Assembly (NCBI RefSeq): GCF_041381155.1
Contig: NC_091142.1
Coordinates: 42,940,747-43,004,746 of the forward strand
DNA length: 64,000 nt
Source of the DNA: Argopecten irradians
Taxonomy: Eukaryota; Mollusca; Bivalvia; Pectinida; Pectinidae
Direction: 5' to 3'
Of the stretch, positions 10,599 through 58,781 are shown piece by piece. Below the pieces are notes generated by a model. The model was not told the origin of the DNA. It made no database searches and saw nothing but the letters and a program-made list of their open reading frames with translations. The stretch's first letter is position 1. Every line of letters starts with the position of its first letter. The position numbers and the translations under genes are program-made.

Positions 10599-13500
10599 TT
10601 AGGTCCAGGCTTGTCTCCTTCCATGTTGCTACAAAAAAGAATTGTTATATTAGGTACTAACACACATGTATCATGCAGGTACTAAGAATACAGAATACAA
10701 ATTGCATATCTGTGATATAAGGTAGGAAGATTTATTAAATACAAAGTATTATCTATAATAAAAACTTCTTGTGGATATTAAGAAGGATATTATAAGATAT
10801 AAGAACAGGAACATCCGTTTGACCTACCCTAGGTGTCAGTCCTCGTATCACCCTTTTGACCTACCCTAGATGTCAGTCCCTGTATCCCTCTTTTGTCCTA
10901 CCCTAGGTGTCAGTCCCGGCCTGTACCCCCTTTTAACCTACCCTAGGTGTCAGTCCCCGTATCCCCCTTTTGACCTACCCTAGATGTCAACCCCTGTGAT
11001 AATTTTAAGTATATTTTAAATTTGCTTAATTTGTCTGCTATTTTAACTAACAAATGATATTATGTTTTACTAACAGGAGGACCATATGGTAGATAAGCCT
11101 TTGGCTTAACATGTAAATCCTTCCTCAATAAATAAAGTTTATTATTATTATCATTAGGTGTCAGTCCCTGTACCCCCCTTTTGACCTACCCTAGGTGTCA
11201 GTCCCTGTACCCCCTTTTGACCTACCCTAGGTGTCAGTCCCTGTACCCCCTTTTGACCTACCCTAGGTGTCAGTCCCTGTACCCCCTTTTGACCTACCCT
11301 AGGTGTCAGTCCCTGTACCCCCTTTTGACCTACCCTCGGTGTCAGTCCCTGTATCCTCCTTTAGACCTAGCCTAGGTGTCAGTCCCTGAACCCCCTTTTG
11401 ACCTACCCTAGGTGTCAGTCCCTGTACCCCCTTTTGACCTACCCTAGGTGTCGGTTCCTGTAACCCCCTTGTGACCTAGCCTAGGTGTCAGTCCCTGTAC
11501 CCCCTTTTGACCTACCCTAGGTGTACGTCCCTGTACCCCCTTTTGACCTAGCCTAGGTGTCAGTCCCTGTATCCCCCTTTTGACCTAGCCTAGGTGTCAG
11601 TCCCTGTACCCCCTTTTGACCTACCCTAGGTGTCAGTCTCTGTACCCCCTTTTGACCTAGCCTAGGTGTCAGTCCCTGTACCCCCTTTTGACCTACCCTA
11701 GGTGTCAGTCCCTGTACCCCCCTTTTGACCTACCCTAGGTGTCAGTCTCTGTACCCCCTTTTGACCTACCCTAGGTGTCAGTCCCTGTACCCCCTTTTGA
11801 CCTACCCTAGGTGTCAGTCCCTGTATACCCCCTTTTGACCTACCCTAGGTGTCAGTCCCTGTACCCCCTTTTGACCTACCCTAGGTGTCAGTCCCTGTAC
11901 CCCCTTTTGACCTACCCTAGGTGTCAGTCCCTGTACCCCCTTTTGACCTACCCTAGGTGTCAGTCCCTGTACCCCCTTTTGACCTACCCTAGGTGTCAGT
12001 CCCTGTACCCCCTTTTGACCTACCCTAGGTGTCAGTCCCTGTACCCCCTTTTGACCTACCCTAGGTGTCAGTCCCTGTACCCCCTTTTGACCTACCCTAG
12101 GTGTCAGTCCCTGTACCCCCTTTTGACCTACCCTAGGTGTCAGTCCCTGTACCCCCTTTTGACCTACCCTAGGTGTCAGTCCCTGTACCCCCTTTTGACC
12201 TACCCTAGGTGTCAGTCCCTGTACCCCCTTTTGACCTACCCTCGGTGTCAGTCCTGTATCCCCCTTTAGACCTAACCTAGGTGTCAGTCCCTGTACCCCC
12301 TTTTGACCTAGCCTAGGTGTCAGTCCCTGTATCCCCCCTTTGACCTACCCTAGGTGTCAGTCCCTGAACCCCCTTTTGACCTACCCTAGGTGTCAGTCCC
12401 TGTACCCCCTTTTGACCTACCCTAGGTGTCAGTCCCTGTACCCCCTTTTGACCTACCCTAGGTGTCAGTCCCTGTACCCCCTTTTGACCTACCCTAGGTG
12501 TCAGTCCCTGTACCCCCTTTTGACCTACCCTATGTGTCAGTCCCTGTACCCCCTTTTGACCTACCCTAGGTGTCAGTCCCTGTACCCCCTTTAGACCTAC
12601 CCTAGGTGTCAGTCCCTGTACCCCCTTTTGACCTAGCCTAGGTGTCAGTCCCTGTATCCCCCCTTTGACCTACCCAAGGTGTCAGTTCCTGTACCCCCTT
12701 TTGACCTACCCTAGGTGTCAGTCCCTGTACCCCCTTTTGACCTACCCTAGGTGTCAGTCCCTGTACCCCCTTTTGACCTACCCTAGGTGTCAGTCCCTGT
12801 ACCCCCCTTTTGACCTACCCTAGGTGTCAGTCCCTGTATACCCCCCTTTGACCTAGCCTAGGTGTCAGTCCCTGTATTCCCCTTTTGACCTACCCTAGGT
12901 GTCAGTCCCTGTACCCCCTTTTGACCTACCCTAGGTGTCAGTCTCTGTACCCCCTTTAGACCTACCCTAGGTGTCAGTCCCTGTACCCCCTTTTGACCTA
13001 CCCTAGGTGTCAGTCCCTGTACCCCCTTTTGACCTACCCTATGTGTCAGTCCCTGTTCCCCTTTTGACCTACCCTAGGTGTCAGTCCCTGTACCCCCTTT
13101 AGACCTACCCTAGGTGTCAGTCCCTGTACCCCCTTTTGACCTAGCCTAGGTGTCAGTCCCTGTATCCCCCCTTTGACCTACCCAAGGTGTCAGTTCCTGT
13201 ACCCCCTTTTGACCTACCCTAGGTGTCAGTCCCTGTACCCCCTTTTGACCTACCCTAGGTGTCAGTCCCTGTACCCCCTTTTGACCTACCCTAGGTGTCA
13301 GTCCCTGTACCCCCTTTTGACCTACCCTAGGTGTCAGTCCCTGTATACCCCCTTTGACCTAGCCTAGGTGTCAGTCCCTGTATCCCCCTTTTGACCTACC
13401 CTAGGTGTCAGTCCCTGTACCCCCTTTTGACCTACCCTAGGTGTCAGTCTCTGTACCCCCTTTAGACCTACCCTAGGTGTCAGTCCCTGTATCCCCCCTT

Positions 13501-16500
13501 TGACCTACCCTAGGTGTCAGTCCCTGTACCCCGTTTTGACCTACCCTAGGTGTCAGTCCCTGTATCCCCCCTTTGACCTACCCTAGGTGTCAGTCCCTGT
13601 ACCCCGTTTTGACCTACCCTAGGTGTCAGTCCCTGAACCCCCTTTTGACCTACTCTAGGTGTCAGTCCCTGTACCCCCTTTTGACCTACCCTAGGTGTCA
13701 GTCCCTGTACCCCCTTTTGACCTACCCTAGGTGTCAGTCCCTGTACCCCTTTTTGACCTACCCTAGGTGTCAGTCCCTGTACCCCCTTTTGACCTACCCT
13801 AGGTGTCAGTCCCTGTACCCCCTTTTGACCTACCCTAGGTGTCAGTCCCTGTAACCCTCCTTTTGACCTACCCTAGGTGTCAGTCCCTGCATCCCCCCTT
13901 TGACCTAGCCTAGGTGTCAGTCCCTGAACCCCCTTTTGACCTACCCTAGGTGTCAGTCCCTGTACCCCCTTTTGACCTACCCTAGGTGTCAGTCCCTGTA
14001 CCCCCTTTTGACCTACCCTAGGTGTCAGTCCCTGTACCCCGTTTTGACCTACCCTAGGTGTCAGTCCCTGTACCCCGTTTTGACCTACCCTAGGTGTCAG
14101 TCCCTGAACCCCCTTTTGACCTACCCTAGGTGTCAGTCCCTGAACCCCCTTTTGACCTACCCTAGGTGTCAGTCCCTGTACCCCCTTTTGACCTACCCTA
14201 GGTGTCAGTCCCTGTATCCCCTTTTGACCTACCCTAGGTGTCAGTCCCTGTATCCCCTTTTGACCTACCCTAGGTGTCAGTCCCGTACCCCCTTTTGACC
14301 TACCCTAGGTGTCAGTCCCTGTACCCCCTTTTGACCTACCCTAGGTGTCAGTCCCTGTACCCCCTTTTGACCTACCCTAGGTGTCAGTCCCTGTACCCCC
14401 TTTTGACCTACCCTAGGTGTCAGTCCCTGTATCCCCCTTTTGACCTACCCTAGGTGTCAGTCCCTGTACCCCCTTTGACCTACCCTAGGTGTCAGTCCCT
14501 GTACCCCCTTTTGACCTACCCTAGGTGTTGGTCCTTGTATCCTCATGCGTTCCGTCTCCTGTCGTAAGAATTCTGTGTACTCTTCATTGTCAGCCTGCTC
14601 ACGTTGGGCTTCCTCATCTTCTCTCTGTCGTGCAATCTCTTCACGTTCTTTCTGTGAAAATATCTGTAAAAACAACGTGAAGATGAAGATGCATCTGATA
14701 TGAAGCTACCAAGTCAGCACATTACCAGAATGGGGCCATGTAGTCATCCAATACATATAGTTACATATACAAATTTCTCAATCTTCAAACATTGTAAAAT
14801 TAAAACACAGTAACACAATGATTAAGCACCCACCTGTTCCTGTAAGTCCAGTTTGACCGCCTCTTTTTGAGCCTCGGCCAGTTTCTTGTCTCTGTGAGTC
14901 ATTTGATTGGCTACTTCCATTTCGCGTAGTAACTGTTCTCTGTGCTTTAGTGATAATTCTTGTTGTTCTCTGTTCTCCTCTATTCTCAACTCGATCTGCT
15001 GCTGACGATCATCCAAAACCTAAAACAAGTACAACCACTTCTGTTTAATCATGTTACAACTTTAGTGTTTTAAACACCAGACACAGTGGAGTTGTCTGTT
15101 CTCATTGTGTACGTGTGAATACCAGGTGTGTTTGGTATCCTTTGTTAGTACACATTGGAGTTGTCTGTCCTCATTGTGTACGTCTGGTTAGCAGGTGTGT
15201 TTGGTATCCTTTGTTAGTACACAGTGGAGTTGTCTGTCCTCATTGTGTACGTCTGGCTAGCAGGTGTGTTTGGTATCCTTTGTTAGTACACATTGGAGTT
15301 GTCTGTCCTCATTGTGTACGTCTGGTTAGCAGGTGTGTTTGGTATCCTTTGCTAGTACACAGTGGAGTTGTCTGTCCTCATTGTGTACGTCTGGTTAGCA
15401 GGTGTGTTTGGTATCCTTTGTTAGTACACAGTGGAGTTGTCTGTCCTCATTGTGTACGTCTGGCTAGCAGGTGTGTTTGGTATCCTTTGTTAGTACACAG
15501 TGGAGTTGTCTGTCCTCATTGTGTACGTCTGGTTAGCAGGTGTGTTTGGTATCCTTTGTTAGTACACAGTGGAGTTGTCTGTCCTCATTGTGTACGTCTG
15601 GTTAGCAGGTGTGTTTGGTATCCTTTGTTAGTACACAGTGGAGTTGTCTGTCCTCATTGTGTACGTCTGGTTAGCAGGTGTGTTTGGTATCCTTTGTTAG
15701 TACACAGTGGAGTTGTCTGTCCTCATTGTGTACGTCTGGTTAGCAGGTGTGTTGGGTATTCTTTGTTAGTACACAGTGGAGTTGTCTGTCCTCATTGTGT
15801 ACGTCTGGTTAGCAGGTGTGTTTGGTATCCTTTGTTAGTACACAGTGGAGTTGTCTGTCCTCATTGTGTACGTCTGGCTAGCAGGTGTGTTTGGTATCCT
15901 TTGTTAGTACACAGTGGAGTTGTCTGTCCTCATTGTGTACGTCTGGTTAGCAGGTGTGTTTGGTATCCTTTGTTAGTACACAGTGGAGTTGTCTGTCCTC
16001 ATTGTGTACGTCTGGTTAGCAGGTGTGTTGGGTATTCTTCGTTAGTACACAGTGGAGTTGTCTGTCCTCATTGTGTATGTCTGGTTAGCAGGTGTGTTTG
16101 GTATCCTTTGTTTGTACACAGTGGAGTTGTCTGTCCTCATTGTGTACGTCTGGCTAGCAGGTGTGTTTGGTATCCTTTGTTAGTACACAATGGAGTTGTC
16201 TGTCCTCATTGTGTACGTCTGGCTAGCAGGTATGTTTGGTATCCTTTGTTAGTACACAGTGGAGTTGTCTGTCCTCATTGTGTACGTCTGGTTAGCAGGT
16301 GTGTTTGGTATCCTTTGTTAGTACACAGTGGAGTTGTCTGTCCTCATTGTGTACGTCTGGTTAGCAGGTGTGTTTGGTATCCTTTGTTAGTACACAGTGG
16401 AGTTGTCTGTCCTCATTGTGTACGTCTGGTTAGCAGGTGTGTTTGGTATCCTTTGTTAGTACACAGTGGAGTTGTCTGTCCTCATTGTGTACGTCTGGTT

Positions 16501-19500
16501 AGCAGGTGTGTTTGGTATCCTTTGTTAGTACACAGTGGAGTTGTCTGTCCTCATTGTGTACGTCTGGTTAGCAGGTGTGTTTGGTATCCTTTGTTAGTAC
16601 ACAGTGGAGTTGTCTGTCCTCATTGTGTACGTCTGGTTAGCAGGTGTGTTTGGTATCATTTGTTAGTACACAGTGGAGTTGTCTGTCCTCATTGTGTACG
16701 TCTGGTTTAGCAGGTGTGTTGGGTATTCTTTGTTAGTACACAGTGGAGTTGTCTGTCCTCATTGTGTACGTCTGGTTAGCAGGTGTGTTTGGTATCATTT
16801 GTTAGTACACAGTGGAGTTGTCTGTCCTCATTGTGTACGTCTGGTTTAGCAGGTGTGTTGGGTATCCTTTGTTAGTTCATACATTGTCTTGTGTGAGTAT
16901 GAGAAACCTAGTCTAACTTATTCTATTTTCTTATTTTAGTTATACATGTATATTATTAATACTAGCTGCTTTAGATATATTTATATATATCCATGTACTG
17001 TATTATACAATAATTTGGAGTCCTTTAAACTAAAATTATATTTACCTCCTGCATGAGACGTTCTCTGGCTTTCTTCTCTCGTTCCCATTCTGCGTCACGT
17101 TTCTGCCACATTCGTGCAGCCTCATCCCTGAAAAATAAATAGCAATTTGTTTGATGTATTTTTGTTGTGCAGAGTCAAATGCATGCAGATAACAGATAAG
17201 GATAGGTCAAACAAATGCATCAAATCATTCAGTAAAATTAAGAAAAGTTTTGTTATAAACCTAACATAGATTACTGACACCAATTCCATGTGACCAATGA
17301 ACCTTGTACTTTCATATTCATGCAACTCAAAGGCATTGTTGTATTTCATTTAATTTCAATTGTATTCTGATAAACTTCACATGATCCTTCGAACTCACTT
17401 AACTTAAATATCTTTGATAACTCACACTGCTCTGATGGTCTTGCAAACATTAGTTTGAACAGTAACTAATCAGCAACAAGGTGGACCTATACTTACTGAT
17501 ATAACATTTCCAGTTCTGCTTCCCTGGTTTTCTCCAGTCGAATCTGGTCTTCTATAACCTACACAAGACAACCATTCTAAATATTGTAACACTTGTACTT
17601 ACTCCTGGCTAATGTTCTGGCAATTAAATGTTGATTATCTTTATATAATAACGAAACTTTCATTTCACATATCTCTCTTTCAATACATATAGGGAGATAT
17701 TAAACCTGAAAGTTTATAATATTTTCATTAAGTTTTCTTTCAACAAGAAAAAGCTAAATTAATATCAAAATAACTAACACAGAAATCTTATTAAAAGACA
17801 AGAATAGTTATAGAATGACTTCAGCCTGATATGCAGAAATATCGTTAGAAAGCTTCGTTAAGGTAGCCAGATATTTGTGACCCTTGTAACCAACCTGTCT
17901 CATCCATTCTGCGTCTGCCTTAGCCTTCTCCCGTCGGGCCGTTTGTATGTGGTCCAACTCATGCTCCTGTTCTATCAGTGAATTAAGGATCTTCTTATCA
18001 AGTTCCTACAACATAGTCAAATTGTCTACAACACCTGGTACATACCGGTACATGTAAAGAGACAAGGTACTGAACCTACATTAGGTTTATTATTACATCA
18101 CTGATTTTTCAATTCCTTGTTAAAACACAGTAAAGTAAAATTGATAACAAAAACAAACCCTAGGTATAATGTATTTAAATGATATCATCAATAATAATAG
18201 GAAATACAGATATTTTATAAACCTTAAAATAAGTACAAAGTCATCATCTAGAAATGTTCAAAGTAAATTATGCTTCCCATAAACAACTTAACATACCAGT
18301 TCTTCTTGGATCTGTTTTGATCTACGCATCATTTGGGTTTTGTGTTGTCGTAGTAGTACACGTCTGAAATAACAAGTTATGATCATAAAAAATTTTGTGC
18401 TCAAAGAAAAATATATTTAACACTTTCGAACAAACAACAAATAGAAGTACTGCTGAAGAAGACAAAATTCAATCCATGCCAGTTGGTAACATTTAGGATT
18501 CTTTTGCCTAGTTGTTACTCTAGATGTTCTTGCTGATGACCAGCATTGGCCTGTTTGTCTCTCTCTATCAAACCAAGTTACCACTAACCTAATCATAGTG
18601 TGTTCTTCCCCACGGACAAGTTCTTTCTTCTTTCTTCCTCAATCCTTCCTAGTTACTACTTACCCATGTTCTCTCTGCTGACGAGCAAGCTCCACTCTCT
18701 TTCTCTCTTCGTCAATCCTTCCTAATCGCCATTGTTCTTGTTGTAATTCTTCCTCCTGTTTCTTCAGTCTTTCCGCCTGAAAATAACCTCAGTGTTGTAC
18801 GACCATTTCAGACCAATAGGATAGCTTACAATATCTTTATTGGGGATTGTCATGGTTTATTCAAGAAAAAAAAAGAGTCAAATTCAAACATAAACATACT
18901 GATGTCCAAACATAAACATACTGATGTCCAAACATAAACATACTGATGTCCACTGATGTCCAAACATAAACATACTGAGTACATACTGATGTCCAAACAA
19001 TACATACTGATGTCCAAACATATCATACTGATGTCCAAACATAACATACTGATGCAAACATAACATACTGATGTCCAAACATATACATACTGATGTCCAA
19101 ACATAAACATACTGATGTCCAAACATATACATACTGATGTCCACAAAACATACTGATGTCCAAACATATACATACTGATGTCCATATAAACTGATGTCCA
19201 ATATACATACTGATGTCCAAAATAAAAACTGATGTCAAACATATACATACTGATGTCAAACATATACATACTGATGTCCAAAATAACATACTGATGTCAA
19301 ACATAACATACTGATGTCCAAACATAAACATACTGATGTCAAACATAAACATACTGATGTCCAAACATAAACATACTGATGTCCAAACATATATACATAC
19401 TGATGTTCAAACATATACATACTGATGTCCAAACATAAACATACTGATGTCCAAACATAAACATACTGATGTCCAAACATATACATACTGATGTCCAAAC

Positions 19501-22500
19501 ATAAACATACTGATGTCCAAACATATACATACTGATGTCCAAACATAAACATACTGATGTCCAAACATAAACATACTGATGTCCAAACATATACATACTG
19601 ATGTCCAAACATAAACATACTGATGTCCAAACATAAACATACTGATGTCCAAACATATACATACTGATGTCCAAACATATATACATACTGATGTCCAAAC
19701 ATATACATACTGATGTTCAAACATATACATACTGATGTCCAAACATATACATACTGATGTCAGAAACAAAAACCTTATATATATGTTATACCATAGCTTA
19801 GCTTGATAGAATTCATAATCATCAATATCGCTATTACTACAATATACAAATCATGACAGAAAAAACACCGACAGACAACAAACCCTGTATAACAAATGTC
19901 ATACCTCATATTCTCTGTTTTTCAACTCGTCCATCTGTTCTACGAGTATGCGTTTCAATCGTTTTTCTTCATCCAATTTCTCTTCTACTTTCCTCCTATC
20001 TGAGTCGATGCCTGCCAATCTTTCTTCTTCCATCTCCAACTCTATCCGTTCTATTTCTTTCTTCTCTTGCTCTTTTCTCTGTGAATAAAAAAGCATAAAT
20101 ATAAAGGGGCTCAGACTACATTTATATTGAGATACGATACATTTTTCATAACCTAATGAATATTTGTTTAAATAGTGACGTCAATAATTTATATAATTAA
20201 TTTTTCAGACTACATTGTACTTATACAAAATATACAGTGTATTACGTTTCCATGTAGGATTTAATTAATCAATTTTCTTTTCTAGATCAATACAAAATGT
20301 CAATGTCTTTTTTGTGACGTCACAAAAACGTCAGTTTTTCTCTCATTACCTGATTTATTTTCCCTAGAGGTATGAAAATAGCAGGATTGGCCAATCAGAC
20401 AGTCAGATTATATTGAGATATGAGACTTTTTTAAAACTATTATTCGATATCAGATTTATGAGAAACTTACAGCTTTAGTTTCGTCTACTTGTCCGGCCCA
20501 GGAACCGACCACTTTCTCCTTCACTAGATCCTGCTCCACCTACAACATAGAATATCCTCCTCAATCTCTGACAAACAGCAAACAAACAAACTCCATCAAA
20601 ACACTACTAACACCTTGTTTGAGCAGAATTTGAGCAGAATAATATGTGTTTTTATAAGTATGTCACACTCACCCGTCTCAGGTCAGGGTTATTTTGTCTC
20701 CAATGCTCGTACAGTTTCTCTTCGGCTAACTGTAAGAAATTATTTAATTTGCTATTGATTTGAAGATACAAGATAGTACAATAATCACAATCACTGATGG
20801 AGTAATAAAGGCCCAGATAGACAATTTTTATTGTATACTAAATGTGTTTCCTTTGCACTACAGTTTTGATTTTTTATTTAATCAAGATTATAACTCGTAC
20901 ACTAAAATAGCAAATAAATTAATTCCTCTACGCCAATTAAAGTGATGCTGCTAGCCCATACTCTACTACATAAAATTGTTATACAGTCAAACCTCGATGT
21001 ATCGAAGTTCAAGGGACTGTCAGAAAAACTTCGAAACATCGAGACTTCGAATTATTCGTGGTTGAAATTAGACCGATGTTTTTTTTACCATGACCAACTG
21101 CGGTAGTTGTGTACATGTCGTTTCCGTTCCGTAAACTTTATAATCATTGCATTTACCACAAGCAAAACAAAATAAAAACTAAGTATGCATGCCGCTGGGT
21201 ATCGGCGAACACCTGATCTGTACAGGTATATTTTTATTCGAATCATCGAGTGTCAGTTACCTATGATTCTATAACAAATGGTCCATGAAAAAAGTTTGAT
21301 ACATCGAGAACTTCGATTCATAAAACTTCGATTCATACATGGGTTAGTTAGTAATGTTATATAGTGAAGAAATTCGGGACCAGACAAAAAGTTTGATGCA
21401 GCGAGAAATTTGATTCATCGAAGTTCAAATCATCGAGGTTTGACTGTAGTTTTAGTAATTAAGGATAGACAATGAGATAGAACAGTCTAACTAGAGGTCC
21501 AACACTCAAATCAAGTTTTCTTTAAGTTGCTAAATCATTCCTAAGTATTATTATAAAACTATATTAAATTATTAATCAGTAGTGACACGTTATTGGTCTG
21601 ATATTGTCTTACCCCTTTCCGCTTTTCTTCTCTAGCACTACGCAGTACATCTGCTCTGTCCCTCATGTCCTCAAGTCGGGAGTAGTTGGCCTTGGAGAAA
21701 CCTTTCAATTCCGCCTGTAAATTGTTTGTTTTATTGTTAATAATTCTATATTGTCCAGCTGCTGCCTTGATATATTGTAATGAGAATTATAACCTTTTAG
21801 CTCTGTCTGTGAAATTGATAATTAGTCACATGTATCGATCACTTAGTGATATGTTTATTCTTCTAATGTTGAAACCAAGCACTACTTTAACCAATCACTG
21901 TTCAACGTTTCTCCCTTGGAGAAATGATCATTGAGAGATGCAAGGAATGTGTATCAACTATCTGATAAAAGCTCAGAAATCAAAGATGTCTGCTGAACTT
22001 TCTATTTAATATAACCACATCTTTGCCTTTGTATATTTGCTTTATGTAAACCAAATAATGAGCTTGGTAGTCTGTTCCTACTATAGAATATTTTTAAGCA
22101 TAATATTGTTAAAGAGAATTTTGGAAAATATGTCAATAAAACTGACAATGATTATTAGAAAATCTGCATCCTTAATTTGATTACCTCATATTCACGTCGT
22201 TCCTTTTTCAGCATGTCAGCGAGTAAAAGTCTGCGACGTTGTAAGTTTATAGCCTTCAGGTTCTTCTCATTGTCAGATTTATATTTGTCCAAGCTGAGAT
22301 ATAAAACCAAACATTGTCAACATAGAATACACAGTGGTCTACTTGTATCTAAATCAAACATTGTCAACATAGAATACACAGTGGTCTACTTGTATCTATA
22401 TCTAACATTGTCAACATAGAATACACAGTGGTCTACTTGTATCTATATCAAACATTGTCAACATAGAATACACAGTGGTCTACTTGTATCTATATCAAAC

Positions 22501-28600: not shown

Positions 28601-30048
28601 TTCTTGTTCTAGACACACAAATTATATAAAATTGATTCCTCTGCACCTAAGTATGCTTCAGACTAAATTTGGTTGCAATCCATTACATTGTATAATACAA
28701 AAGGTTGACTGATATTGAACCTAGCAAACTCTTTCAACAAAGAAAATACATACACTAAGATAAACTAACATTAGCTTCTGACTAATGCACTTAAAATAAA
28801 CACAGACACCGAAGATTGGTACAAGATCAATTTATTTAGTTATCATTTAATTAAACAAAATATATAAATACTATCTGTTAAACAGTAATGTATATTGTAT
28901 ACTGCAAACAGACTGCTCCAGTATTTTTATTATTATAACTAGTTTTCACCATGAGAATTTCAGGTGAATGTTGAAGGAAATAAAAGACACCACTAGTATT
29001 TTTATGTTTTCACACGAAAACTACAATTTCACTTACTAAATAAATGCAATGATTTCAAATCAAGATTACTTAGGTACCTTATTTAGAAACATCACAAAAT
29101 TATAAAAAGCACTATTAACTATCATTATACCATAAACTTTATTCTGATGTGTAGAGATACAATATGCTGCGTACATCACCAGTGAAGTCAACCAAGGCCC
29201 AGATACAATAGACACATGATTTATCTGAAATAGCTTAAAAATCTGGTCTACACACCAAAATAACAATGCAAAAAGTGCAATAATTAGTTAAACACCTGGT
29301 AGGTATAATATGATATCTATAATTGATAATTACATAACCAAGTTAATGTAACAGTAAATGAACATACATATTTTAACTGCAGTATTAGCATACCCACCGT
29401 TAGCACTTTTCTATACAGATGAGTATGGTGAACAATCAACATGTATGTACCTCATTGCTAGTAATACATACACATATCCTGCAGTAAAGTATCGATACAT
29501 GTACAATGAATTTGTACAAGTATTAGTTTGCTTGGCATGATTATTTGCTAAATGACCCTTTGAATGAGAAATATATCCCTTAAATGACATTATGTATGTC
29601 AATGTCATGCCTTACATAACAAGAATACCATACGTGATGACTACATAAAGGAGAATACTCTATGAAAATCCAAGTGATAAGTATTAAATGTTGACATATT
29701 GTCTGTATTGATTGTACATAACAAAAAATTCATGTTCAATATTTTCTTTTAATTCTACACAATCCTAACACTCAGCATTATGTAACCAACTCGTCTGAAC
29801 ATTAGTCAATAAAAAAAAATCATATTAAATACAGAAACTTGTAAGAGAGACAAACACTCAGAATTTATGGTACATGATAAAGATGTTAAAAGTTATAATT
29901 GCACTGGTCCCCTATATCACACTAACAATCACATTCTCTTTCATCTCCGTACACAAACACATTTTACACATAATGGTACATAACATCAATTTTGTAATTA
30001 CAAAAAGGTGATTTCCATTTATACATCAAAAGTTATAAGTTTCATTAC

Positions 30049-30054
30049 TTTATT
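30049..30054 (-). terminator. Candidate polyadenylation signal AATAAA for TRAPPC11
   Basis: A minus-strand AATAAA lies about 440 bases past the TRAPPC11 stop codon. Its position is plausible for a 3' UTR end, but AATAAA is common in AT-rich DNA. Confidence 0.3.
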
Positions 30055-30294
30055 TCAGAAGAAATCTTTTGGAGAACACAATGCATATACTAGAATGTAT
30101 ATGATTTCTATGATTTTGTGTTTTACCTGCAGGTATTAGAATGGCGTTATTAACACAAAAACATACTCCAGATTATCATATAGAGATACAATAACATATA
30201 AACAGTACTATCACATGTAAATACTCAGTAAACAACTACACAATTATCTTAGTTCAAAAACACAACTGTTGCACTTCTTTGTGAAGGTAACTTT

Positions 30295-48400: not shown

Positions 48401-51400
48401 ATAGAATGAAGAATACCAAATAAAATATCAAAAGCATTTTTTCATTTAATTATTAAAATTCTCACCTACAAGTCTAGAAACAGTAAAGAATAACAATAAA
48501 TAATGACATACACGACTGCTCTGAATCCCTGGCTGTCTCGTCTCCTTGGATACCAAACGACAATCTGTCAATGATTAAATTGTATGAATTGTTACTGACA
48601 ATCTGTCAATGATAAAACTGTATAAATTGTTACTGACAATCTGTCAATGATAAAACTGTATGAATTGTTACTGACAATGATAAAACTGTATGAATTGTTA
48701 CTGACAATGATAAAACTGTATGAATTGTTACTGACAAACTGACAATGATAAAACTGTATGAATTGTTACTGACAATGATAAAACTGTATGAATTGTTACT
48801 GACAATGATAAAACTGTATGAATTGTTACTGACAATGATAAAACTGTATGAATTGTTACTGACAATGATAAAACTGTATGAATTGTTACTGACAATGATA
48901 AAATTGTATAAATTGTTACTGACAATCTGTCAATGATAAAATTGTATGAATTGTTACTGACAATCTGTCAATGATAAAATTGTATAAATTGTTACTGACA
49001 ATCTGTCAATGATAAAATTGTATAAATTGTTACTGACAATCTGTCAATGATAAAATTGTATGAATTGTTACTGACAATCTGTCAATGATAAAATTGTATA
49101 AATTGTTACTGACAATCTGTCAATGATAAAATTGTATAAATTGTTACTGACAATCTGTCAATGATAAAACTGTATGAATTGTTACTGACAAACTGTCAAT
49201 GATAAAATTGTATAAATTGTTACTGACTATCTGTCAATGAGCTGTATACCATGTTTCTATATAACATCAAATTCAGCACTAGGCTCAGTGTAACAAGAAA
49301 AATACAATAAATCAACATTAGCTTCTGAATCTGCTGTAACTGTTGAAGAAAAATTACCTACCTTATTAAATCTTCTTTTTTTTTAATATAAAGGTGAAAG
49401 TTATGGATTTTATAGGTAATCATTTTTAAAATATCAAATAAATCATCAATACTGGAGTCCATAATGGGCAGTAAATTGATATACATGTAATACCATTTGT
49501 AGAAATATATTGTAATACTTTTAGAGGAGAGTTATCTCCCTTGGCATATAGATGAGAAGTTAATCATAATACATGTTCAGGTACTCATAACTTCATAGTT
49601 TCATTCTCTTTACAATACATAACGAGTGCCTATATAATATAGTTACCTGATGTCCTCTATGTCCATGTCCTCTTTGTTAGTCATCTCCAGCCTCAGTAGG
49701 TAGAACTCGTTCAGTAGACAAGGTGGCTCATGTTGGATCACAACGTCTAGTTTGGCCTTGCGGGGAACAATTCTAAAACAGTCAAGGTTATAGTCATTTG
49801 AGCCAACCTCCAGTCCATTACTTCAGCATGCCAACTGTTAGATAGCTGAGTCTTTAGAAATTAGGCCCAATAAGCATGAATAAAGTTATCATTCAACTGC
49901 CTAATTCATTATATACAGGTACTTGCCCACAATAAAATATAAGGATACCTGATTGTCAAAACAATTGGAAAATTCGATATTGATTCATAACAAGCAAATA
50001 TGGAGAAATGATCATGTGGTTTCAATATTTTTTACTGCTTAGATAACCTTGGTGATTTGGTATGTATGAACCGTGAGGTAACCTTGGTGATTTGGTATGT
50101 ATGAACCGTGAGGTAACCTTGGTGATTTGGTATGTATGAACCGTGAGGTAACCTTGGTGATTTGGTATGTATGAACCATGAGGTAACCTTGGTGATTTGG
50201 TATGTATGAACCATGAGGTAACCTTGGTGATTTGGTATGTATGAACCATGAGGTAACCTTGGTGATTTGGTATGTATGAACTGTGAGGTAACCTTGGTGA
50301 TTTGGTATGTATGAACTATGAGGTAACCTTGGTGATTTGGTATGTATGAACTGTGAGGTAACCTCGGTGATTTGGTATGTATGAACTATGAGGTAACCTT
50401 GGTGATTTGGTATGTATGAACTATGAGGTAACCTTGGTGATTTGGTATGTTTGTACCATGAGGTAACCTTGGTGATTTGGTATGTATGAACTGTGAGGTA
50501 ACCTCGGTGATTTGGTATGTATGAACTATGAGGTAACCTTGGTGATTTGGTATGTATGAACCATGAGGTAACCTTGGTGATTTGGTATGTATGAACTGTG
50601 AGGTAACCTCGGTGATTTGGTATGTATGAACTATGAGGTAACCTTGGTGATTTGGTATGTATGAACTATGAGGTAACCTTGGTGATTTGGTATGTTTGTA
50701 CCATGAGGTAACCTTGGTGATTTGGTATGTATGAACTATGAGGTAACCTTGGTGATTTGGTATGTATGAACCGTGAGGTAACCTTGGTGATTTGGTATGT
50801 ATGAACTATGAGGTAACCTTGGTGATTTGGTATGTATGAACCATGAGGTAACCTTGGTGATTTGGTATGTATGAACTGTGAGGTAACCTTGGTGATTTGG
50901 TATGTATGAACTATGAGGTAACCTTGGTGATTTGGTATGTATGAACCATGAGGTAACCTTGGTGATTTGGTATGTATGAACCTTGAGGTAACCTTGGTGA
51001 TTTGGTATGTATGTACTTTGAGGTAACCTTGGTGATTTGGTATGTATGAACTGTGAGGTAACTTTGGTGATTTGGTATGTGTGAACCATGAGGTAACCTT
51101 GGTGATTTGGTATGTATGAACCATGAGGTAACCTTGGTGATTTGGTATGTATGAACCGTGAGGTAACCTTGGTGATTTGGTATGTAAGAACTATGAGGTA
51201 AACTTGGTGATTTGGTATGTATGAACCGTGAGGTAACCTTGGTGATTTGGTATGTAAGAACTATGAGGTAACCTTGGTGATTTGGTATGTATGAACCGTG
51301 AGATAACCTTGGTGATTTGGTATGAATTATGATGAACTAACCTGGTACTATTTGGTATGAGTTATGATGAACTAACCTGGTCCCATTTGGTATGAATTTT

Positions 51401-54400
51401 GATGAACTAACCTGGTACTATTGGTCTGAATTATGATGAACTAACCTGGTACTATTGGTCTGAATTATGATGAACTAACCTGGTACTATTGGTATGAATT
51501 ATGATGAAATAACCTGGTACTATTGGTGTGAATTATGATGAACTAACCCGGTACTATTTGTTATGAATTATGATGAACTAACCTTGTACTATTTGGTATG
51601 AATTATGATGAACTAACCTGGTACTATTGGTGTGAATTATAATGAACTAACCTGGTACTATTGGTATGAATTATGATGAACTAACCTGGTACTATTTGGT
51701 ATGAATTATGATGAACTAACCTGGTACTATTGGTATGAATTATGATGAACTAACCTGGTACTATTGGTCTGAATTATGATGAACTAACCTGGTACTATTT
51801 GGTATGAATTATGATGAACTAACCTGGTACTATTGGTATGAGTTATGATGAACTAACCTGGTACTATTGGTATGAATTATGATGAACTAAACTGGTACTA
51901 TTGGTATGAATTATGATGAACTAACCTGGTACTATTGGTATGAATTATGATGAACTAACCAGGTACTATTGGTATGAATTATGATGAAATAACCTGGTAC
52001 TATTGGTATGAATTATGATGAACTAACCTGGTACCATTTGGTATGAATTATGATGAAATAACCTGGTAATATTGGTATGAATTATAATGAACTAACCTGG
52101 TACTATTAGTATGAATTATGATGAACTAACCTGGTACTACCCTGTACATCCACAGCATTCCAGTCGATAGGACTTCCCGGCTCGGCTGGTTTCCGTGGTA
52201 ACAGTGACTGAGCTGTTTGTACAGGAGATACGGCTGGTCCTCCTGCTCCCATCCATTGTAACATGGCACATCGTCCCGACTCTGATCCTAGCTCCAGGAC
52301 CAAGGAAGAAATCTACTCAAAAACAGCACTTACATTATTCTTACTGGAGTTATATAATGATTGTGAAAACAAATTAAATGAAAATCAATTACAGCACTAA
52401 GATACAGCAATTTAATTTCACTTAAGATTGCTAGAAAATCACCATTTATTGGGTAAAGAATGGATCCAGAATAACAAGAATAAGGCACCTCATTATCCTA
52501 CACAATTTGTACAAAAACATGGTCACTGAAATTTCCTAAATAAACTGATCATGAGCTAACAAATTCAGGATGAAGCTAACAAATTCAGGATGTAGCTAAC
52601 CAATTCAGGGTGTAGCTAACAAATAAAGGGAGTAGCTAACAAATTCAGGATGTAGCTAACAAATTCCGGGTGTAGCTAACAAATTCAGGGTGTAGCTAAC
52701 AAATTCCGGGTGTAGCTAACAAATTCAGGGTGTAGCTAACAAATTCAGGGTGTAGCTAACAAATTCAGGATGTAGCTAACAAATTCAGGGTGTAGCTAAC
52801 AAATTCAGGGTGTAGATAACAGCTAACACTTAGCCTTTACCTCGAGCAATGTGTCAACATCGTCCTTGACAGGGAGGAAGTTGAAGGTGTAAAGCCTCGT
52901 TTGGCCTGGTATGAGGTAGAGATCCCCGCCCCTGGGGTCACTGTCCGACCCCGTGGATACATCATGGTTGTCTATTACCTGACAGTACTGGTTATAAGGC
53001 TAGAAAGTCAAAGACAATATTAATAGAAAAACATTTAAATACACAATTCATATAGAGCAATACACATAATACCATACCAAAGGTGAGCACAAAGGGGCAA
53101 ACCAAGTCTTAGTTAGATCAATATATCTACCAGTAGGTATACCAACTATATATCACCCCAAATCATTGATGCATACAAACTGGCACAGACGACCATGATC
53201 ACATCTTGTGGGTTAATTAATCCACTGTTGATTACTTAGTTTATAGTTTATTCTAGTTTTAACACTATACAGGGTGTCTTCATAATAACAGGTGTATATA
53301 CAGCGTGTTATAACATATTAAACGTGAGGTTTAGTAAAGATTTTAGTGTCAATATTCAGGATACAGGTTTTGTATAAGTCTATCATCACTGTTGTTTAAG
53401 AAGCCTAAGAGATATTGACAACAGGTAACCGACATGTGATATTTACCTGCTGTCAGTGATAGATAATATCTACCTGTAATCTTATAACACCTGCAATGAC
53501 TTATCAGTTTGTAATATGTACTTGGCAATGACCTCAAATAACACTTAATGAATAGCACAATGTATCTTCATTTCCTTTCACACTAAAATTCTCTTCTTTC
53601 TTATCATGACTAATCTTTCCAAACTCAAAGTACAGTCAAACAAGGAAATGAGGGAAAATGGTCTTTATAGCCAGGTGGTCTTTATACACAGGTTGATTTG
53701 TGTTAAATTTGGTCTTATTAAGCAGGTGGTCTTTATACAGAGGTGGTCAGTAAGGCAGGTTTCACTGTATATATATGTTAAAGTTTTTGAGTGAACCTAG
53801 GCTTACAAAACAATTTTAAATCTGTGTCTTGTTATCATTGTGATATATACATGATGTTATCACTAAACTTTTATCTAAATCCTAAAGTCACATGGTGTCA
53901 GCTCCATACACAGTCCTAAGTAACATCGGGACACAGCTGTATAGGTTAGAATCAATACTGAAATGGAATCGCTACACAAACCGATTCCTGTCAGGGTTAA
54001 AGGTCAAGTGACATGTGTACATCACCAGAGAAAGAAACTAAAGTTGTTTTGTGTGTCATGTGATGAGCTGATTTGCTCTAAATGTTGTTCTAGTGTACAT
54101 GAAGGACATGACACCTGTGATCTGAGTGACGTCGTACAGGACAGGAAGACAAAGCTCCAGAACTTTGTGGGTGAGTTTGGGAAATATAAGAATGTCATCA
54201 GGAAGGAAAGGACAACTGCTGACAAAGAACAGGAAGACAACTCAGAAACATTTGTAAAACAGATGAAAAAAATGAAATACCAAGGGGAGAAACTAAAAGA
54301 AGCAACAGACAAATTGACAGAGAAATATAAAAGTCAGTACCAACAACTGTTAGAGGAAAATAAGGAGATGATGACAACTTACACCAAGGCATTACAAACT

Positions 54401-57400
54401 GGCAAAGTTAAAATCCTGTTATAAAGAATGTAAAATCCTTCTGCAGGAAGAAGGACAAGATATCCTGATATTTGACATGGAGAGGGAAGTTCAGACCAAC
54501 ATTAGAGAAATGCCTGTTAAGCCTACACTGAACACTGCATCAAGTTTCAAAGTGAATAAATATCCACAAGTGGAGGTGGAGAAACTGTTCGGGACGAGCA
54601 ACACGACTGGAGATGTTCAACAAAGTAACGTACCCAATGATACGACAGATAGAAAGTCGTTTAGCTCAGATTCACCAACGTAAGGCATCAAACCTGATTC
54701 TTTTAAACTGTCAGAATCTGTAGAGGAACAGATGTCTAATCTGACTGATGAGTTTGTGTCTCCTCCATGTGAGGTAGTAGCAGAGATTCAATGTCTGTGT
54801 GAGATCAGCAGCCTTTGTCCTGTCCCCAGGGGCTGGGGCGAGTGGGTCCGTCACCCACAGGGTAGTAGTGAGCAGATACTTTCCTCTTGGGTTGGGGTCC
54901 AGCAGATCTCTGCCCCCGGGGCTGTCTGGGTGTCTGATGTACTCAGTAACACGGTCACCTTGTTAGACCAAACCGGCGTGATACAACACAGTATTGAGTA
55001 CCCGTCGGGTGTGAGAGACATCAGTGTGTCTCCTGTTACTGACACAGTGTGGATGTGTTCTGACTTCAGTGTCTCACAATACACTAGATCCTGCATGGAG
55101 CCTGTGGTAAGATTCCACACCAAGAACAAACCGAACTGTCTCTGTGTCGCAAAGGATGGACATATCATCGTCGGAATGAAACAAAATGTCACAAAATTCA
55201 CTTCAGATGGTGAAATCGTCCAAACAACTAACCTTTTCCAATCTGAGTCAGTTCACACTCCGTACAGAATCACTGAGTGTGGTATTACTGGGAATATTGC
55301 TGTGGTCGACTGGGATTTGTCAGAGGATGGCGGGGACGATAATGGCCATGTGCTGGTAATGGATAAAAACTTCACCAAAATAATCTTTTACAGCGGTGAT
55401 AATGAAGAAGAATTAACGGCAACTCGTATATTCCCTTTCAGTCCCATCGCGGCCCAGTATGACAGTCAAGGCAACCTTGTGATTGGTGACTGTATGAACA
55501 GTCAGTTACACCTACTTAACAGTCGTGGCCGATTCCTGAAGATCATCCACACAGACAGTATGGAGATATGGGCACTAGGTATGGGACATGAGGATAGTGT
55601 ATGGGTGGTATACAGACAGTTGACAGGTCGCAGTCAAGTTTTACGGTATATCTAATGAACCAATAGCTACTAAATATATAATAGCATATTTTAAATTCTT
55701 TTTCGTATTTATAAATTTGGTTCAGTTGAATGACTAATGTGTGTGCTTATCCAAGCATGACATTTACTGATATGTTGGTGAGGAACACTTACTTGATTGT
55801 TCAGGAATACAGACAGCTTACTGAACCTTACAGGGAAAGGACAGTTCACTCTGTAATAAAACAGAACCAGATTGATACAAGGCAAAATCAAATTGATATA
55901 TGTACGTTTATACTTATGTGTGTCTCAGCATGTTTTCAGTATACCTTAATCTGAAATACTTCCAGTTAAACTTCATTCTGTATCAGTATGTAACAGGCAA
56001 ACCTATAAATTCAATTCTTTCCTTGAATATACAGTGGGACTCGGTTAATATGAACTTGAAGGGACTGAGATAAAACTTTGAGTTATCCGAGTGTTCAAAT
56101 TAAGCGAGTTCTCAATCGACAATCTCTATACTTGGAAACAGATCTTCTTTTTCCGTGTCGTAAAAGGATATGAGAAAGAAAGATATCAAAATCGTCGATG
56201 GTGGTTGCAAAATTATAACAATAAAACCGAAATAAATCCAAAATATTGATTCATGAACCGTAATCACAACAAATTTTTCACGCACATAAATAACAGACAT
56301 TACTGACCTAATTGAGACACATGTGGTCATAGGAAATTATGTAGAACGTAATTCTGCACAACTTATGATCAAACGATGGTGGCTGGTGAACGGTGCAAAG
56401 TGTATTTTGTCGAGTAAAAAGTACAAAGCACTAACATTGTTCATAGTACCTAAATAATTGTAGCATCGCTCTATAAAAACAGTTTTCATGTACAACTCCA
56501 AGTTGTGATTGCATTTGGAAGACAGTGCCAGGTGGCTAGAGATAAGTTCCGCTCGAGTGATTATAACATGCATGTGACAGGCGGCCGAGAGCACCTGTTT
56601 TGTATCATGTCGCCATTTCAGTCGGGGTAATGTTTATGTAAGTAATTAACATTTACTGCAGCTTCACAATTGATTATCGCTGATAATTGTTGATAAATAT
56701 AACTTAAGTTCATTACTAAACATGAAACAGTTTTTCCATGTTTTTGTAGTTGTAAGCGGCTTTTGAAATGCTGTTTTACGGCATTTGTATGAAAAAGAAA
56801 TCGGCATTTTCGGCAATCTTGTTGTCCAAAAAATCTCCATGCGAGTTATACAAACTATTTATGTATGTTTTTTGTCATTCGGACTAAAAATTCACTTCGT
56901 ATTATCCGAGTTTTTCGAGTTTTCCTAATTCAAATTTTCCAAATTTGTTAAACAAAGATAAAGAAGGAATTTGGCCAGGACAGCAAAGTACTTCGTGTTA
57001 AGCCAGGTTGTCGAATTATCCGAGTTTGTATCAAGCAAGTTCCACTGTATATATATATATATATATGGTATGTTCAACTCCACATAACTTCTGTCTGTGT
57101 CAGTATGTTTTCAGTATACCTACCTTATGTATACCTCCAGCTGAACTTCTGTGTCAGCAGCAACTGTTTCTGTACTGAAGCAGGCCTTACACTCAACTGT
57201 CATAAAACACAGCATTATTGATAGTTGTAATGAATCTTTATAAAGCCAATATATCTTCTATCCCAAAGATATCAGTTTACCAGAAAATCTAACCATTTCA
57301 AGGTACAATGTTTCGTGATATGTGTTTTGAGATTGACTTGTTTCAAAATGTTTTACAACTGAAGGTTTATCAATCAATGGAGTATAGTGTTCATTCTTTA

Positions 57401-58781
57401 GTTGAGTTTGTATCTTATATCACTTACCAAATGGTACAATATTCTGCATGTCTATACTGAACACAGAGGGCACAGTAGTCTCTGAGGAGCTGCTCATCCA
57501 AAGGCGCTTAGCATTGTCTACACATGTAGGGTCAAGGCCTGGCTCAGGCTCTGGGGCGTCATTCTATATACAACAGATTCAAGTTACAATATCTATACAG
57601 GTAGGGTCAAGGCCTGGCTCAGGCTCTGGGGTGTCATTCTATATACAACAGATTCAAGTTACAATATCTATACAGGTAGGGTCAAGGCCTGGCTCAGGCT
57701 CTGGGGCGTCATTCTATATACAACAGATTCAAGTTACAATATCTATACAGGTAGGGTCAAGGCCTGGCTCAGGCTCTGGGGTGTCATTCTATATACAACA
57801 GATTCAAGTTACAATATCTATACAGGTAGTGTCAAGGCCTGGCTCAGGCTCTGGGGTGTCATTCTATATACAACAGATTCAAGTTACAATATCTATACAA
57901 GTAGGGTCAAGGCCTGGCTCAGGCTCCGGGGCGTCATTCTATATACAACAGATTCAAGTTACAATATCTATACAGGTAGGGTCAAGGCCTGGCTCAGGCT
58001 CTGGGGTGTCATTCTATATACAACAGATTCAAGTATAACAAACTAAATTCATCCAAAAACATTGACAGCATTATCAATAGCTGATGATTAAGGCTTCTTT
58101 CATCCTCAGTACTCTAGGGGTTACTATCACTGAACTATGTCATAGTAATCAAAGCTCTGTGTGCAATCAGATGTAAGGTGTGACAAGGTACATTGGTCCT
58201 CTGATGTACATCAATAACAGTAAACTGAATTAGCTTTGAAGTTACATTGTAGCTTCGGTGTCGTTCCTTTGTAAGAAGGTCTGTGATTGGTCAGTTTACG
58301 ACATAGCTCAGTCAAATATAACAGCGATCATTTTCAGCCTATCCCAAATAGGGAAAGACCATCTTCACTAGCCAAGGCTTCTGATTACTTAACGCTTCAT
58401 GAAGTGTAACATAGCCTTGGCAAGCAAAAGTGGGGATAGGAATAGATCGAAACTGATGTCAATAATGATTAGTATTTTTTCTTATATGGTCAATTATTGA
58501 ACAGAAGCATTAACACTCTTGACAAGTCAATGTCCTATTGTTAGCTTTGTAGTCACTTTTGCTGCATTTGTATCATGAACTTCCTAAATTTGTCACTGTT
58601 TTTATTAATTTAATTACATGTAAATAGATAATTAGCCCCCTTAGAGATGTACAGGCTGTACTTACAGATATAACTCGTATCAGATTCATCTGTATCCTCG
58701 TTTTTTCCTCGGGTGACCGCATGCTGTCTAATTGTGGGTCAAGGTCAACAAAAAATATCGTCCATGGCAACATTAGACTTG
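30491..58781 (-). CDS. TRAPPC11: TRAPPC11 (TRAPP III subunit), C-terminal 17 exons, 5' part outside window
   Basis: Exons in transcript order: 58666-58781, 57428-57563, 57124-57196, 55793-55850, 52841-52999, 52131-52312, 49647-49772, 48512-48564, 48146-48237, 47430-47489, 47084-47209, 46620-46718, 40351-40402, 39884-39989, 39047-39275, 31576-31743, 30491-30523. Phases agree at every junction. Peptides match human TRAPPC11 in order, for example CPFPVRFSKLSVFLNNQ, YNQYC, ESGRCAMLQW, CTCEQEETITL, DSFMFSGNKQ, LFPLVAGH and PTHVFIKPTGK. About 620 of roughly 1,130 residues are present: the end of the foie-gras region and the gryzun-type beta-rich C-terminus. TRAPPC11 acts in TRAPP III, in ER-Golgi traffic, autophagy and glycosylation. 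The reading of the first listed exon before VDLDPQLDS is uncertain because of a run of six T. Most introns are filled by tandem arrays, and seven of these arrays include copies of the adjacent splice site. Confidence 0.95.
30995..31575 (-). repeat. 88 bp array carrying the 5' splice site of TRAPPC11 exon 31576-31743
   Basis: About six or seven units start directly at the exon end. On the minus strand each contains CACGTCTTTATCAAG/GTAGGTATA, identical to the last 15 exon bases plus donor. The left-most units are truncated. The unit is not a multiple of 3. Confidence 0.93.
31744..33640. other. Unique part of TRAPPC11 penultimate-side intron with dispersed repeat
   Basis: No exon was recognised. 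Between about 32340 and 32880 there are two or three diverged copies of a roughly 200 bp segment, marked by CCATCTTGTT, CGATCAGTCCTAAAATG and CTTTCTGAGA, ending in a GGACGGACGGACTACGGACC run. I take this as an interspersed repeat of unknown class. The remainder is AT-rich and featureless. Confidence 0.5.
33645..39046 (-). repeat. 35 bp array made from end of TRAPPC11 exon 39047-39275, ~155 copies
   Basis: This is the longest gene-internal array. On the minus strand the unit reads GTAACGATGACTTCATG then TTCTCTGGTAACAAACAG. The exon ends with AATGATAGCTTCATG then TTCTCTGGTAACAAACAG, so the 35 bp unit is almost entirely a copy of the last 30-33 coding bases plus the GT of the donor. Two sub-types alternate (GATGACTTC and GATAGCTTC); the exon itself has the second. 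Since 35 is not a multiple of 3, only every third copy of the donor would keep frame. Confidence 0.97.
40098..40265. mobile_element. Degraded MITE-like remnant
   Basis: It carries AACCTG...GAACACCTGCTTATAC and GGTGGTCTTTATAGAC motifs that resemble the small TA-flanked element at 53633-53767, but clear termini and target duplication are missing. Confidence 0.3.
40403..42010 (-). repeat. 63 bp array carrying the 3' splice site of TRAPPC11 exon 40351-40402, ~26 copies
   Basis: On the minus strand each unit contains CTCTTCACTTCTCCAG/TCTC followed by CCACTGTACACA, nearly identical to the acceptor and first 15 bases of the adjoining exon (TCTCCCTTTGTACACA). The polypyrimidine tract and AG are therefore copied with every unit. 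The unit is a multiple of 3, but the exon frame meets a TAG within each unit. Confidence 0.95.
42011..46619 (-). repeat. 39 bp array made from end of TRAPPC11 exon 46620-46718, ~118 copies
   Basis: On the minus strand each unit reads GAACTACAGTCAAGTCAG, TTACAAATG/GTACGTATCATA. The exon ends with the same 27 bases and the same donor, so 27 coding bases plus 12 intron bases form the 39 bp unit. The unit is 13 codons (VRIIELQSSQLQM) with no stop in the exon frame. The frame is open from the exon to about 45789, and elsewhere over stretches of up to 486 codons. Indels create several breaks, concentrated at 42015-42130, 42470-42900, 45230-45560 and 46150-46190. Confidence 0.97.
48565..49240 (-). 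repeat. 30/38 bp array carrying the 3' splice site of TRAPPC11 exon 48512-48564, ~20 copies
   Basis: On the minus strand the 38 bp form ends TTTTATCATTGACAG/ATTGTC. The exon acceptor is TTTAATCATTGACAG/ATTGTC, so the acceptor and the first six exon bases are repeated. A block of 30 bp units (about 48670-48900) lacks an 8 bp segment but still ends in a CAG. It is flanked on both sides by 38 bp units. Confidence 0.9.
50036..51318 (-). repeat. 35 bp array in TRAPPC11 intron 49773-52130, ~36 copies
   Basis: The unit on the plus strand is GTAACCTTGGTGATTTGGTA then TGTATGAACCATGAG. It aligns, with small gaps, to the 34 bp unit of the adjoining array, including the minus-strand CCAAG/GTTA step, so it is probably a diverged relative of the same splice-site-derived family. 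The main variation is at the ACC[A/G]TGAG end. Confidence 0.93.
51319..52130 (-). repeat. 34 bp array carrying the 5' splice site of TRAPPC11 exon 52131-52312, ~24 copies
   Basis: The array abuts the exon. On the minus strand each unit contains TAGTACCAG/GTTAGTTCATC. The exon ends TAGTACCAG with the same donor, so nine exon bases, the donor and about 25 intron bases are copied. Units alternate between 34 and 35 bp (TATTGG versus TATTTGG). Confidence 0.92.
52557..52822. repeat. 20 bp array, about 13 copies, next to TRAPPC11 exon 52841-52999
   Basis: The unit is TGTAGCTAACAAATTCAGGG. It begins about 18 bases inside the intron and does not include the donor or exon bases, unlike several neighbouring arrays. 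Confidence 0.93.
53633..53767. mobile_element. Small TA-flanked MITE (135 bp)
   Basis: The termini CAGTCAAAC and, inverted, CAGTGAAAC are flanked by TA on both sides. Three GGTCTTTATA motifs lie inside. It sits just upstream of the TRIM-like gene, in a TRAPPC11 intron. Confidence 0.6.
53963..55655 (+). pseudogene. B-box/TRIM-like gene with NHL-type C-terminus, frameshifted, nested antisense in TRAPPC11
   Basis: The first frame (53963-54421) has a B-box 2 zinc finger with C18, H21, C30, C33, C38, C41, H46 and H49, then a charged coiled coil. There is no RING domain. Near 54420 the frame changes (KECKILLQEEG continues in another frame), and an in-frame TAA follows at 54681-54683. The same frame then resumes as GIKPDSFKLSESVEEQ and runs to 55655. 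The last 300 residues look like a beta-propeller (GAVWVSD, GNIAVVDWD, GNLVIGDCMNSQLHLLNSRG), as in TRIM2/3/56/71-like proteins. It has no introns and lies on the strand opposite the host gene. Two defects in otherwise well-kept sequence suggest a recent pseudogene or assembly errors. RING-less TRIM-like genes of this form are expanded in bivalves. Confidence 0.8.
56032..57047. mobile_element. TA-flanked inverted-repeat transposon (pogo/Tigger-like, 1016 bp)
   Basis: The left end CAGTGGGACTCGGTTAATA and inverted right end CAGTGGAACTTGCTTGATA agree at 15 of 19 positions and are flanked by TA. Sub-terminal segments also repeat an ATTATCCGAGTTTG-like motif. No intact transposase frame was seen. 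An AT dinucleotide run follows the right end. It lies in a TRAPPC11 intron. Confidence 0.75.
57535..58035 (-). repeat. 75 bp array copying acceptor and start of TRAPPC11 exon 57428-57563, 7 copies
   Basis: On the minus strand each unit has an intronic part ending TCTGTTGTATATAG, then AATGACGCCCCAGAGCCTGA and the following bases of the exon. The functional exon is the left-most copy. Exon similarity extends about 55 bases into the exon, with the last 17 diverged (exon CTACATGTGTAGACAATG versus unit CTACCTGTATAGATATTG). The unit is a multiple of 3, and the plus strand is open for 196 codons as a side effect. On the minus strand a TGA closes each extra copy. Confidence 0.93.
58036..58665. other. 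TRAPPC11 intron, unique part
   Basis: AT-rich intron sequence of about 630 bp. No exon, element or array was recognised. Confidence 0.5.

Follow-up and report, generated by a model that had tools for sequence, protein, structure and literature searches.

Why should introns of two genes in one stretch of the Argopecten irradians genome carry long tandem arrays whose repeat unit contains the very splice site that the array adjoins, and does this happen elsewhere in the genome more often than random placement would give? The window, by which we mean the whole stretch of 64,000 nucleotides that was analysed (C9:42940747-43004746, in an assembly of 845.8 Mb), holds a TCHP-like and a TRAPPC11-like gene, both on its minus strand (Table 1). 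The initial annotation had described eight such arrays in these two genes, and their presence was borne out by TRF, by the spliced open frames, by Pfam and by the overlap of the arrays with exons. TRF recovered all eight with the periods given there, and in each the unit continues from the intron into the neighboring exon by 6 to 47 bases. The smallest share is the 6 exon bases at 48564, and by TRF overlap the largest is the 47 at 57563.

When the 13 exons of the TCHP-like gene were joined they gave an open frame running from ATG to GPTPR (489 aa), and the 16 exons of the TRAPPC11-like gene gave one open frame of 596 aa. A Pfam search placed a TPH domain in the former product and a Gryzun domain in the latter, the Gryzun match (residues 459-573) running across the 39047/31743 junction. 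Six of the eight junctions have frame-continuous exons on both sides. After 14520 (from 10628) and after 31576 (from 31011) the terminal exon is a candidate without homology support. These two junctions therefore count as donors on three grounds, namely the consensus, the reading frame that leads up to them and the array itself. A PDB search for TRAPPC11 relatives, intended to test the last exon, found none. Starting a TRAPPC11-like exon at 57550 in place of 57563 broke the frame, and 57563 stands. Nested in a TRAPPC11-like intron on the opposite strand is an apparently intronless B-box (TRIM-like) gene (PF00643; 53945-55655, plus strand).

Table 1. Gene models and tandem arrays of the window (positions counted from the first base of the window).
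Feature	Position	Strand	Description	Evidence
TCHP-like gene	14520..25689	-	13 coding exons; open frame	Pfam TPH
TCHP-like exons 1-7	25689-25499, 22293-22185, 21714-21613, 20729-20673, 20539-20471, 20078-19905, 18776-18664	-		
TCHP-like exons 8-13	18363-18297, 18005-17895, 17558-17497, 17127-17046, 15019-14834, 14663-14520	-		
TRAPPC11-like gene	31576..58727	-	16 exons in window; single open frame	Pfam Gryzun
TRAPPC11-like exons 1-8	58727-58666, 57563-57428, 57196-57124, 55850-55793, 52999-52841, 52312-52131, 49772-49647, 48564-48512	-		
TRAPPC11-like exons 9-16	48237-48146, 47489-47430, 47209-47084, 46727-46620, 40402-40351, 39989-39884, 39275-39047, 31743-31576	-		
TCHP donor array	11155..14539	-	36-bp unit; 5' splice site 14520; 20 exon bases	TRF, gene model, exon copy aligned to consensus
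TCHP donor array, second block	10818..10989	-	about 165 bp from main block	TRF; homology to junction 14520
88-bp array, about 6 copies	31013..31590	-	5' splice site 31576; 15 exon bases	two overlapping TRF rows
35-bp array, 155 copies	33640..39071	-	5' splice site 39047; 25 exon bases	TRF
63-bp array, 26 copies	40387..42014	-	3' splice site 40402; 16 exon bases	TRF
Mosaic seam	42015..42098	-	5'-type and 3'-type units alternate once	direct reading
39-bp array, 116 copies	42099..46648	-	5' splice site 46620; 18 exon bases by TRF overlap, 29 by alignment	
30/38-bp array	48559..49240	-	3' splice site 48564; only 6 exon bases	TRF
35-bp array, 37 copies	50044..51324	-	abuts 34-bp array; spans no junction	TRF
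34-bp array, 24 copies	51317..52139	-	5' splice site 52131; 9 exon bases	TRF
75-bp array, 6.9 copies	57517..58034	-	3' splice site 57563; 47 exon bases	TRF, alignment

The eight introns said to be filled by these arrays are eight junctions but seven introns, as one intron runs from 46620 to 40402. That intron, of 6.2 kb, is occupied throughout, its 5' end being repeated in the 39-bp array and its 3' end in the 63-bp array, but by coordinates the array takes up only about 62% of the intron at 48564 and about 43% of that at 57563. The 88-bp array may span the last TRAPPC11-like intron, after 31576, from end to end. Other large arrays lie in the window as well. In the intron that precedes the TRAPPC11-like exon at 58727, positions 59183-63995 hold 138 copies of a 35-bp unit with an inverted-repeat core, reaching the window edge. 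Past the 3' end of the TCHP-like gene, 69 copies of an 82-bp unit occupy 841-6508. A third array (8306-9737) has a 70-bp unit resembling an acceptor, a 20-base mini-exon and a donor on the plus strand (CTCTCATCAG / ATAAGGATGTACATCTACAG / GTAGTGG), and no gene evidence was found for it.

The proposal that the arrays arose independently is supported. A genome search with the TCHP unit returned 42 matches, all of them at C9:42951561-42955446, which is its own array and the second block, among the best candidates scored; the other window units differ from one another by inspection. Introner elements and dispersed repeats were set aside on the same grounds. Microhomology was also set aside as a requirement for the founding event, for 4-5 shared bases could be seen by eye at some arrays and none at others. 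The arrays are junction-born minisatellites, with a unit made of a contiguous exon end and intron edge and with the exon-side copy intact and in frame, and they recur in unrelated genes.

An established way in which tandem duplication can involve splice signals is the AGGT type of intron gain, where the new intron is made of duplicated exon and the same segment stands at both of its ends. Most of the donors considered here do have exon AG or GG before the GT, and some units are mostly exon, as in L092, an array at a mitofusin exon, where exon accounts for 36 of 42 bp. The units of the window, however, carry intron sequence and one boundary only, and the 46620 and 40402 ends carry different units, the intron after 31576 being a possible exception. 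We therefore regard intron gain of this type as a very unlikely origin of the arrays.

Copies of the splice sites are present as sequence in large numbers, as had been claimed. In 11 of 13 arrays at least 95.8% of the copies keep their GT or AG, the loss being at most 4.2%. The other two are the 48564 array, with units of two lengths, and the TCHP array, in which the G is variable. At 39047 the real donor is followed by about 154 near-identical ones, and no loss of GT was seen among the copies of that array. The mean divergence of copies from the consensus of their array is 1.0-6.5% in 12 of the 13 arrays, and the exon copy differs from that consensus at anything from no site to several (5 of 31 in TCHP). 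Since copies stay near their own consensus while exon copies differ from it, the arrays appear to be self-homogenizing. Long tandem arrays are hard to assemble, and an artefact of assembly has to be considered for this reason; yet the copies differ by varied substitutions and indels, the arrays lie on several contigs and the coding frames are intact, which makes such an artefact most improbable.

Use of a decoy is predicted to bring in a stop in frame within about two units at seven of the eight window junctions. In view of these stops most decoys must be ignored by splicing if the genes are to work as modelled, and we infer that splicing does ignore most of them. The 39-bp array at 46620 is the exception; its frame stays open over 828 nt (21 units), so that it could add a 13-residue repeat. 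It could be argued from this array, and from the retention of GT or AG, that the copies have a selected function, whether in binding U1 or other factors, in buffering the true site or in adding repeat peptides. The stops at the other seven junctions speak against it, as does the finding that splice-site positions are on average conserved no better than the rest of the unit. A selected function, which would be compatible with the explanation preferred below, is accordingly considered improbable.

The initial annotation had also claimed that arrays meet junctions more often than chance would allow, and in the window this is the case. Each array was collapsed to one unit, and a unit of the same length was placed at random, though not wholly inside an exon; a placement was taken as junction-spanning if the unit held at least 6 exon and at least 6 intron bases. 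Of the 15 window arrays that reach five copies, eight span a junction, against 1.51 expected (P 2.3e-5). As the window was picked for its striking looks, independent loci must weigh more.

Such loci were obtained by Pfam searches of the same genome, which led to exons of myosin, kinesin and dynein genes in 30 + 30 loci and 19 regions. Further exons were added by homology, exon ends were refined and each match was inspected, giving 226 exons in the final test; as the exons come from three protein families and their homologues only, the exon annotation outside the window is partial. The homology script recovered six of the eight window junctions; 46620 and 48564 were missed, as was L082, and all three were kept on direct reading. 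The overlapping loci L015, L056, L062, L033 and L066 were dropped from the final test, while a few partial overlaps and the haplotig L080 remained in it. Four candidates (L084, L014 at 2261, L027 and L071) were not accepted as junction arrays, since either the match by profile or homology overran the true exon end or the repeat was weak.

Among the arrays with at least five copies in these loci, 5 of 24 span a junction contiguously, two at acceptors (L078, L035) and three at donors (L082, L063, L068), against 1.73 expected (P 0.024). Two more, L059 and L052, were added from homology; they copy the adjacent junction but are detached from it by up to 160 bp, and with them the count becomes 7 of 24 against the same 1.73 (P 0.001), under a null that does not model detached arrays. 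Repeats of fewer than five copies gave a different result, with only 3 of 62 spanning a junction (L019, L034 and L014 at 3146) against 4.68 expected, and therefore no excess; inclusion of L068 at 754 (2.8 copies), left out as the second block of an array already counted (L068) and likewise matching the junction by homology, would give 4 of 62. Large and small arrays differ by Fisher's test (0.004, or 0.036 with the strict count). Before inspection, with loci merged and L080 out, the corresponding counts were 7 of 25 for large arrays (1.83 expected) and 4 of 64 for small ones (4.77 expected). When a 30-bp zone was taken for each junction, array density outside the window was 3.7 per 10 kb on the junction (five arrays), 1.8 at 1-25 bp (two arrays) and 0.8-1.4 at distances beyond 50 bp, with no array at 26-50 bp, all on small counts.

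Two observations were made in passing at these loci. A distinct 39-bp array lies about 17 bp before the acceptor of the myosin exon whose donor is spanned by the small repeat in L014 (3146-3240; 22 bp, 4.3 copies). By its matching exon hits, contig C669 looks like another haplotype of a dynein heavy-chain region located on C3 (L079 and L080); TRF found no array in either locus, and the pair would be useful for comparing alleles.

A larger, if cruder, sample was provided by counts over the whole genome. The perfect donor CAGGTAAGT occurs 19404 times, compared with 5409 for its reversed control, and is found in doublets 4017 times against 152 and three in a row, at 24-54 bp spacing, 3100 times against 91. 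Put as proportions, 16.0% of its occurrences start a tandem triple (1.7% in the control) and 25.4% lie inside tandem runs (3.9%), an excess of about 5-fold by runs and 9.5-fold by triples. These counts are weighted by copy and one array may give several runs, so the excess at the level of arrays is smaller than 5-fold. The control 9-mer, moreover, need not be genic, and the ratio could be inflated if genes are rich in arrays; the density test within loci guards against this but is small. For a second donor, AAGGTAAGT, triples numbered 1282 against 233, not normalized, with one 6-kb array supplying most places among the matches listed. At G000:C1:487315-493480, AAGGTAAGT repeats spaced roughly 48 bp apart extend over about 6 kb.

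Acceptors behaved differently. A strong acceptor 12-mer occurs 4655 times against 3726 for its control, and its doublets number 30 against 12 at one spacing and 18 against 12 at another, most places among the matches listed falling in one array. No convincing genome-wide excess of tandem arrays of this 12-mer was found, in a test that is weak because the 12-mer itself is only about a quarter above its control. The largest array of the strong acceptor motif among the matches listed has a 30-bp spacing (G000:C4:30262114-30263908).

Five donor arrays at the start of contig C1, among the matches listed, were read directly. L090 ends in a guanylate cyclase exon and L092 in the mitofusin exon, both coding and Pfam-matched, and L091 ends in a probable exon; no adjoining exon was found on reading at L088 and L089. 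The observation made in the window is confirmed as real and as recurring outside it, and the suggestion of a genome-wide process is upheld as far as recurrence in myosin, kinesin, dynein, guanylate cyclase and mitofusin exons and the donor counts go. Single 3' arrays are real, but the acceptor test over the genome is not convincing.

Could chance alone account for this? In a genome crowded with minisatellites and with short introns, some founder duplications would span junctions with none being favored. Tandem repeats are very abundant in some animal genomes, the available part of one report giving 21.7%, apparently of the assembly, for a scallop (PMC10225492), which suggests that genomes of this kind may be good places to look, and small duplications do match junctions at about the expected rate. 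Large arrays, on the other hand, exceed random placement both in the window and outside it, and the donor 9-mers in tandem exceed their control several-fold. Chance as the whole explanation is thus rather unlikely.

Equally doubtful, in our opinion, is that arrays are born preferentially at junctions, where polymerase pausing, R-loops, nucleosome edges or the binding of splicing factors could raise the rate of duplication. The peak of density on the junctions themselves and the lack of large arrays at 26-50 bp, albeit on small counts, and the strong donor 9-mer signal would agree with such targeting. Direct seeding should nevertheless give a junction excess below five copies as well, which was not seen, and the acceptor consensus is without the signal. 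As the excess is found only in arrays of many copies, growth or survival is favored over targeted birth, and of the earlier wording, by which the process "seeds or retains" duplications at junctions, it is retention, with growth, toward which the results lean.

We consider it somewhat probable, then, that tandem duplications spanning a junction are not aimed at it, but are unusually successful at growing or persisting, the gene being kept in working order by the copy on the exon side. The founding event would be a local tandem duplication that by chance crosses a splice junction, as such duplications presumably arise throughout introns. With the exon copy left intact the gene would still work and the intron would merely lengthen. 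Growth of the array could proceed by slippage or unequal exchange, with copies homogenizing one another, while the true splice site would be kept by the exon-side copy, and exon definition, in which sites are paired across the exon, may cause the intronic copies to be mostly ignored. Junction-spanning duplications would on this account expand or persist more than those in the interior of introns. A possible contributor is that the exon anchors one edge of the array, so that deletions running past the array on that side would be removed by selection, though anchoring would probably account for no more than part of the excess. That an active process specific to junctions is at work is plausible, on modest counts and with mainly donor-side support. 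More tentatively, the splice site itself might drive amplification, through expansion coupled to transcription or splicing or through selection, and so enlarge introns genome-wide from their own boundaries.

The arrays suggest a route of intron growth separate from transposons. They also offer natural test objects for an old question, that of the choice the spliceosome makes when many identical sites are on offer, and point to a source of decoy splice sites to be reckoned with in gene annotation and in the interpretation of variants. Should the junction excess of large arrays hold genome-wide, a link between splicing signals and repeat instability would be directly testable; should amplification driven by the splice site be true, introns are being enlarged from their own boundaries, with about a quarter of the perfect CAGGTAAGT 9-mers already in runs.

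Among the titles and abstract beginnings listed in the open-access literature, from which subscription papers are mostly absent, recurrent, high-copy junction arrays on a genome-wide scale were not found. A 2007 study by Zhuo and colleagues reportedly, going by its title, treats tandem arrays as an origin of alternatively spliced human introns; compared by title only, its likeness to our case is the linking of introns with tandem arrays. The accessible portion of an intron review (PMC3488318) has nothing on junction arrays. Expansion of existing junctions into arrays had been thought undescribed, which holds for recurrence at genome scale as far as that search went, but human arrays at exon-intron boundaries are in print (PMC2812944; PMC4526556, both as excerpted). 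De Grassi and Ciccarelli (2009; PMC2812944) reported, in the sections available, internal tandem repeats at exon-intron boundaries in human segmental duplications, with 27 intron modifications. The likeness lies in minisatellite expansion across exon-intron boundaries that changes introns; their repeats vary between recent paralogues and can form novel introns, whereas here existing introns grow, in genes that are not known to be recent duplicates.

Intron gain by AGGT tandem duplication (Rogers 1989; Hellsten 2011; with a multi-copy case in fission yeast, PMC4974935, as given in its available text) shares with our arrays a tandem duplication that involves splice signals. On those partial accounts it makes an intron out of exon, while here the unit spans one existing boundary and the intron only lengthens. 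A close likeness is to human IFI6 (6-16), whose minisatellite supplies several splice donors, downstream repeats being reported as used (Turri et al. 1995, as cited in the accessible part of PMC4526556). As in IFI6, the tandem unit of these arrays joins an exon end to a donor site. IFI6, however, is a single gene with used donors, and the present arrays, known from sequence alone, occur in several genes, reach 155 copies and involve both 5' and 3' splice sites. Single junction minisatellites such as that of IFI6 were thus already known, and it is the scale, together with an excess confined to large arrays, that looks new.
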